Part shown: one piece after another, positions 13,790 to 49,060 of the stretch
Layout: each line of letters begins with the position of its first letter
Position numbering within the stretch: the stretch's first letter is position 1
Source of the DNA: Acidobacteriota bacterium
GTDB taxonomy: Bacteria > Acidobacteriota > Vicinamibacteria > Vicinamibacterales > UBA8438
Length of the DNA stretch: 64,000 nucleotides
Direction: 5' to 3'
Assembly (NCBI GenBank): GCA_015659035.1
Contig: DQNS01000004.1
Location: 36,440-100,439, forward strand
The notes under the pieces: generated by a model
Told to the model about the DNA's origin: nothing
Database searches by the model: none
What the model saw: only the letters and a program-made list of their open reading frames with translations
Made by a program: the position numbers and the translations under genes

Positions 13790-13860
13790 GACGACCTCCC
13801 TCAATCCCGGACGGGGCATCCCACAAAGGGACCGCGTTGGGCTTCAGCTCAGTGGGGTCA

Positions 13861-13906
13861 CAAACCTCCAGTTTGCTCCCTCGTCGCGCCTTGCCAGCCG
13901 GGCGCC
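13861..13906 (-). repeat. Degenerate copy (E) of the long palindromic repeat family, core and apex only
   Basis: Minus strand ...CCGGCTGGCAAGGCGCGACGAGGGAG matches the core of copies A/B; apex hairpin CAAAC-ctcca-GTTTG (13861-13875). Confidence 0.55.
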
Positions 13907-14075
13907 GCGCTCCGGGACTGATGCAGCGCCCTCTACTACAGGACAGTAGCACCTCTGGTCCGGTTGATCCAGAAGGTCCACGGCCCCATCGGGCTGCACG
14001 TACGCACCCGACTCGGCGGGAGTTGATCTATCCTGACGGGGCGGAATCAGTGGACGTGACCAGAAGAGAGAAGAC

Positions 14076-28086: not shown

Positions 28087-28253
28087 GGACCCTGACCAGA
28101 ATAAGTGTGCCACCGTGTGGGCCCAGATCGACGCCGCGTACAGCACGCCTCCGGCGCGAGGAGTGCGCATACCGGGAGTATGCAAGCGACGAGCAACGCC
28201 GCGGGGCGGGATGCATCGGCGGGCCAGAATGGCACAGTATTTCGGGGTCTTCA
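28084..28253 (+). repeat. Long palindromic repeat family, copy C (diverged)
   Basis: Core GGCGCGAGGAG...GCATAC-cggga-GTATGC...CGACGAGCAACGCC...GGGATGCATCGGCGGGCC; left end TAAGGACCC coincides with the TAA stop of the upstream gene. Confidence 0.75.
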
Positions 28254-30909: not shown

Positions 30910-31072
30910 TAAGGGTCCGCGCAAGAATAAGTTCCTATTTTGGGGCGTCGAGGCGTCCGGCTGGCAAGGCGCGAGGAGGGAACATACGAGCAGTATTCGA
31001 CCGACGAGCAACGTCGCCAGACGGGATGCATCGACGGCCGAAAATGGGAAGTTATTCTTGCGTGGGCCCTAA
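30910..31072 (+). repeat. Long palindromic repeat family, copy B, with TAA direct flanks
   Basis: [TAA]GGGTCCGCGCAAGAATAAGTTCCTATTTT ... AAAATGGGAAGTTATTCTTGCGTGGGCCC[TAA]; apex ATAC-gagca-GTAT at 30984-30996. Confidence 0.9.
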
Positions 31073-48897: not shown

Positions 48898-49060
48898 TTA
48901 GGACCCGGGCGGGAATGACTATGCCATTCTGGTCGCCGATACATCCCGCCCGGCTGCGTTGCTCGTTGCTTACATACTCCCGGACGCGCGCTCCTCGCGC
49001 CTTACCGAACGGGCGCCTCGACGCCAGAAGTTGGCATACTTATTCCCGCCCGGGTCCTTA
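48898..49060 (-). repeat. Long palindromic repeat family, copy D, with TTA direct flanks
   Basis: [TTA]GGACCCGGGCGGGAATGACTATGCCA ... TTGGCATACTTATTCCCGCCCGGGTCC[TTA]; right TTA is the stop codon of the minus-strand gene ending at 49058. Confidence 0.9.

Follow-up and report, generated by a model that had tools for sequence, protein, structure and literature searches.

The ends are what usually defines a MITE, and the interior is regarded as filler. The element described here presents the reverse, a conserved interior in exchangeable ends whose fold is possible on one strand only. ERIC is its closest functional parallel: both are long imperfect palindromes, but their sequences, compared by reading, differ throughout and the hosts are others, so that the element would work like ERIC without being a member. 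To our knowledge, end exchange around a constant centre is not known for ERIC. PMC10969869 and PMC3049150 describe Correia and ERIC elements as altering mRNA, and for ERIC the effects are reported to depend on orientation (cited in PMC3049150); MITEs with stable hairpin transcripts are thus already known. BOX of pneumococcus is a modular repeat which is thought to be mobilized by an IS and has a structured transcript (PMC3049150). The element resembles BOX in its modularity, presumed IS mobilization and putative structured transcript, but the modules boxA, boxB and boxC stand in a row whereas here a constant centre is nested in different ends. With the REP/BIME sequences and their RAYT (Y1) transposases it shares palindromic structure, intergenic position, high copy number and a one-strand hairpin; unlike these, it has paired inverted ends and a DDE-type target duplication. 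Among the ISAzo13 insertion sequences and MITEs compared (Correia, RUP, Nezha), similarities were the end layout of autonomous ISAzo13 elements, the TNA duplication, the many intergenic copies and the lack of coding content. In contrast to those, no autonomous partner was found in the genome, the interior is not visibly IS-derived, and one interior occurs with other ends.

The window, i.e., the whole stretch of 64,000 nucleotides that was analyzed, contains the 157-bp imperfect palindrome studied here (copy B, 30913-31069) as well as several relatives:

30910-30912, + strand: left target site duplication TAA (within CTAAG), based on the TNA duplication statistic
30913-30941, + strand: left terminal inverted repeat GGGTCCGCGCAAGAATAAGTTCCTATTTT, an ISAzo13-type end (type T1) like the ends of 1.9-kb ISAzo13 elements
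30945-31038, + strand (the strand with the conserved fold): conserved core, 102.9 bits with covariance model R1
30973-30981, + strand: 5' sides of three tandem G.A/A.G motifs, GA at 30973-30974, 30976-30977 and 30980-30981 (alignment A1, columns 32-33, 35-36 and 40-41)
30984-30996, + strand: apex hairpin ATAC-GAGCA-GTAT (alignment columns 44-58)
30999-31007, + strand: 3' sides of the tandem G.A motifs, GA at 30999-31000, 31003-31004 and 31006-31007
31041-31069, - strand: right terminal inverted repeat, reverse complement GGGCCCACGCAAGAATAACTTCCCATTTT
31070-31072, + strand: right target site duplication TAA
26596-26752, + strand: copy A, the same element, flanked by GAA and CCA
28128-28223, + strand: additional core copy with another ISAzo13-like left end CTAAGGACCCTGACCAGAATAAG and a decayed right end
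48932-49024, - strand: additional core copy with both ends of one other type (GGACCCGGGCGGGAATAAG...)
13807-13913, - strand: core copy of weak score (38 bits), more distantly related, with untyped ends

The arms of copy B (50 nt each) are 82% complementary, and its single-strand DNA fold reaches -55.8 kcal/mol (z = -10.5 against shuffles). This agrees with the first-pass annotation, which had described a long imperfect palindrome with the apex hairpin now located at 30984-30996. The roughly a dozen differences that it had estimated between copies A and B were counted as 13 of 157 positions. Its flanking TAA trinucleotides are present on both sides of copy B but not of copy A. Both copies are real, but the two-copy picture was too small: three more core relatives lie in the window and at least 144 core copies were detected by the covariance model in the genome of this organism (3.18 Mb in 150 contigs, 89% complete). 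A search with the whole element, the genome-wide count that had been proposed as a check, gave 40 scored places at 77-100% identity in this genome, further candidates being unscored. Among 40 relatives including this genome, matches were found in 29, and outside the genus mostly just the centre (query bases 35-134) was conserved. No covariance model of Rfam 15 matched the element or its relatives, in the main set even at E up to 10. The stop codon of a phosphotriesterase-family gene (PF02126, 25437-26594) ends 2 nt before the start of copy A. The genome of a congeneric sister species, G002, contains a form shortened to 96 bp by deletion, which has T1 ends and lacks most of the core (L071, 2295-2390).

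Insertion traces were drawn from 89 elements with T1 or T2 ends. Their flanking triplets were mainly TAA or TTA, and where both flanks were TNA (58 elements) the two were equal in 44 cases, against 21.8 expected. The joined flanks of a copy on contig C79 matched G002 with 90% identity over 191 nt, and the element was absent there. The TNA duplication together with this empty site demonstrated that the element inserts precisely with a 3-bp duplication; precise insertion, suggested earlier as a check, was thus seen for the C79 copy, which was used in place of copy B because the flanks of the latter are not syntenic in the three congeners. A further element copy had inserted into another core, within its apex loop.

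Scanning one genome per species for exact matches to CGCAAGAATAACTTCC revealed T1 ends in several phyla. In CAIWXX010000014 (uncultured Acidobacteria) and DAHWQF010000589 (labelled Acidimicrobiaceae), pairs of T1-like terminal repeats lie 1907 and 1937 bp apart and enclose ISAzo13 transposases (PF07592/NF033519, E = 2e-102 and 6e-111). These two insertion sequences (L075 and L088), both of other organisms, share 23-24 of the 29 T1 positions per end, 5-6 being different, and a similar end layout, CTNAGG...CAATAAATAA, occurs on autonomous ISAzo13 elements of the order. Judging from these ends, an ISAzo13-family transposase is the most likely mobilizing enzyme of copy B, and mobility with ISAzo13-type ends can be regarded as very probable. 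No PF07592 match was found in the 89% complete assembly of the own genome, and G002 contains a PF07592 remnant of 26 positions only. The search for a transposase between the same ends, which had been proposed for the same genome, was thus negative there for ISAzo13 but succeeded, with similar ends, in other organisms. Since no ISAzo13 enzyme was found, the own copies have probably been left stranded, unless its gene belongs to the tenth of the genome that the assembly lacks. As copy B has 157 bp and carries no gene, it is a MITE with ISAzo13-type ends and not an ISAzo13 insertion sequence. The earlier comparison with MITE- or ERIC-like non-autonomous elements is supported by the multiple copies, the matching transposase-bearing insertion sequences elsewhere, the TNA duplication and the empty site of the sister copy. 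No described ISAzo13-driven MITE was found in the literature searched, which did not extend to subscription journals; the single paper there to mention both ISAzo13 and MITEs draws no connection between them. The analysis offers ISAzo13 as the likely mobilizer family for a MITE.

The element is a real MITE, and its interior is the interesting part. The central approximately 94 nt belong to a much larger family than the whole element, and in the loci of relatives quite different inverted repeats surround the common centre. A covariance model built from an alignment of 40 cores gave matches in 41 of the 247 genomes that were sampled across the phylum. The core was also detected in other phyla, in MAGs with the labels Nitrospinota, Nitrospirota and Planctomycetota, some of them possibly mis-binned, and on one Desulfosarcina plasmid, the record of which is complete; within the phage and plasmid collections this plasmid carried the only copy. 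Typing of 139 own copies revealed matching ends of type T4 in 27, T2 in 20, T1 in 13 and T3 in 9 copies, and the remainder were mixed, decayed or of further types. By layout, the T1, T2, T5, T6 and T8 ends are ISAzo13-like. T4 and other ends start with CTAG, T3 ends resemble them, and these ends are similar to the IS630 elements of relatives. The latter carry CTAGTGGTCCGTCAC ends resembling T3, but none of them matched T3 or T4 in full, and none of the relatives' IS630 or ISAzo13 loci had ends matching T4. The presence of the same core within several types of terminal repeats indicates that the ends were swapped and the core was retained. Own core copies show many other end types (CTAGTGTCC..., CTAGTGGCCCGTATCAGTG..., GGGTCCGTAAGG..., GGTTTTC...), without a matched transposase.

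As RNAalifold did not recover the outer stem from the raw alignment, the structure was written by hand. In the hand alignment of 40 cores, 87% of the cells were paired (25-38% when slid), with two-sided changes in 21 of 32 pairs. For 86 model-found cores of other genomes these values were 91% (27-39% when slid) and 30 of 32, to be read alongside the slid and shuffled controls because the structure guided this alignment and some of its cores were also used in training the model. The best conserved unpaired bases are the three tandem G.A/A.G motifs (33-37 of 40 sequences per position pair), accompanied by conserved AA on either side. Tandem G.A is possible on one strand only, since the opposite strand would have T.C mismatches. 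Among mismatches at paired core positions, G.T outnumbered A.C by 226 to 53, with an excess in 18 columns against 5 and in 75 rows against 2; these counts are not independent events, as the copies are related, and the column-level sign test gave p = 0.01 only. The ends showed the same tendency in T1 (34:5), T2 (54:19) and T4 (51:13) but not in T3 (16:15). All four end types have G(T/C)CCG in common, with recurrent T on the left and C on the right.

RNA folding pointed to the same strand. Copy B folded with -101 kcal/mol on the core strand and -72 kcal/mol on the other, a difference of 29 kcal/mol, and among the own copies with flanks the core strand folded better in 114 of 139. In a control with random wobble flips, 15 of 18 elements reached the observed strand difference in less than 10% of trials; L076 (11%), L134 and L089 did not fall below this limit. 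Strand-specific selection on the fold is therefore likely, and a fold kept on one strand only indicates that the unit under selection is a single strand. This bias does not prove RNA, because G.T wobbles are tolerated in single-stranded DNA too; given selection, a transcript is somewhat favoured over single-stranded DNA.

In the own genome, 114 of 139 copies were intergenic, with no preference for tandem, divergent or convergent gene pairs relative to background. Between co-directional genes, assigned with a simple home-made codon-based gene caller on which these orientation counts rest, the core strand was sense rather than antisense in 39:19 cases in the own genome and 16:10 elsewhere (total 55:29, p = 0.006); the bias in the other genomes alone was not significant. 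We know of no reason for a direction preference of DDE insertion, and the sense bias thus hints, as a weak test, at selection on the transcript. The 43-residue translation shared by copies A and B, already considered a by-product of DNA repetition in the first-pass annotation, can be regarded as such. One frame is open across both copies, as a small protein would require, but stems and loops differ by 1-2 nt among copies, which breaks any frame, and conservation tracks base pairing on one strand; a coding function is hence practically out of the question.

The explanation that we favour, with some reserve, combines an ISAzo13-moved MITE with an independent core selected on one strand, most likely as a transcript. 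Copy B would have been moved in trans by an ISAzo13-family DDE transposase into a CTNAG site with a 3-bp TNA duplication, and its core is an independent conserved module that has become joined to transposon ends of several kinds. A one-strand fold is kept in the core and, less markedly, in the ends, so that the selected unit would be a single strand, most likely the transcript. Co-transcribed with a neighbouring gene, the element would form one stable hairpin acting in cis on that mRNA by harmless folding-out, processing or stabilization, effects of the kind reported for Correia and ERIC elements. Such an effect would favour sense insertions and keep the core intact through end changes. A near-perfect DNA palindrome of this size would be unstable, and the one-strand wobbles would break the DNA palindrome yet leave the transcript paired. 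It is conceivable, and we propose it only tentatively, that the core is a selfish structured-RNA module which outlives its transposons by switching transposase families. It would survive the loss of a transposase through the ends of other families (ISAzo13 types, IS630-like types) in several phyla, and the fold of its transcript would render insertions tolerable to the host. This raises the testable question of whether non-autonomous bacterial elements are selected for transcript effects on the host. With more than 100 copies in a genome and absent from Rfam, the core is also a target for annotation.

The observations could also be read as a plain MITE, the core being passive filler, the ends diverging or recombining and the fold kept merely as a DNA palindrome. 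MITEs whose transcripts form stable hairpins are ordinary (review PMC10969869), most copies are intergenic, and long palindromes readily arise and homogenize. However, a passive element should conserve its transposition ends, and here the core stays and the ends are exchanged. Neither the strand asymmetry nor the conserved, non-complementary G.A bases are expected of a passive palindrome, which makes this reading unlikely. The persistence of the core through end changes would fit as well a hairpin of single-stranded DNA, e.g., on the lagging-strand template or recognized by an HUH (TnpA/RAYT-like) enzyme, to which the DDE-type ends would be secondary. G.T wobble and sheared G.A pairs form in DNA as well, and HUH transposases read strand-specific hairpins with invariant mismatches. 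IS200/IS605-type elements, however, do not make DDE-type inverted ends and a 3-bp duplication, and the excess of sense copies beside genes speaks for transcription; we consider such a DNA hairpin rather improbable.

The strong covariation in the core fold would also be compatible with a free-standing structured RNA, such as an intercistronic phage or host element, repeatedly captured by transposon ends. Two intergenic core-like hairpins without recognizable transposon ends lie on viral contig IMGVR_UViG_3300022695_000189 (L376, 3153-3352; L377, 5267-5464), and a second, reversed hairpin follows each of them. Against this, most inspected cores have paired transposon-like ends, the fold was present in just 1 of 30 viral contigs carrying the sequence pattern, and an Rfam match is absent, so that this origin is given little credence. 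The transcript-selected MITE remains our preferred reading. No strand-specific conserved core common to MITEs with different transposon ends was found in the literature searched, subscription journals lying outside the coverage.

Preference for one strand may be a general trait of intergenic palindromes in bacteria, as an E. coli ERIC copy between dxs and yajO (L399) behaves likewise: it folds with -50 versus -37 kcal/mol, 13.6 kcal/mol better on one strand, and its stem has GA mismatches (CAGGAGCTTAC/GTAAGTGACTG). In MAGs with the labels Rokubacteria, Gemmatimonadetes, Holophagae, Nitrospirae and Planctomycetota, T1-type ends also enclose palindromic centres that differ, as it appears, from the core. 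Such elements (GAAACCGnAGGAATAGC...CGAGGATTTCG) were observed at L170 (6736-6915), L124 (1750-1929), L072 (931-1135), L159 (1937-2115) and L116 (173-357). They are likewise one-sided, L170 folding with -133 versus -88 kcal/mol with 11 wobbles and zero A.C mismatches. Some of them have GGGATGC/GCGCCC-like motifs as in the core and the same one-strand fold preference, and they possibly represent a sister core family. The copy on the plasmid of Desulfosarcina sp. BuS5 (NZ_CP087953.1; L051, 3005-3161) is T1-ended and has kept the outer core, with a fully paired stem in place of the G.A-mismatched part.
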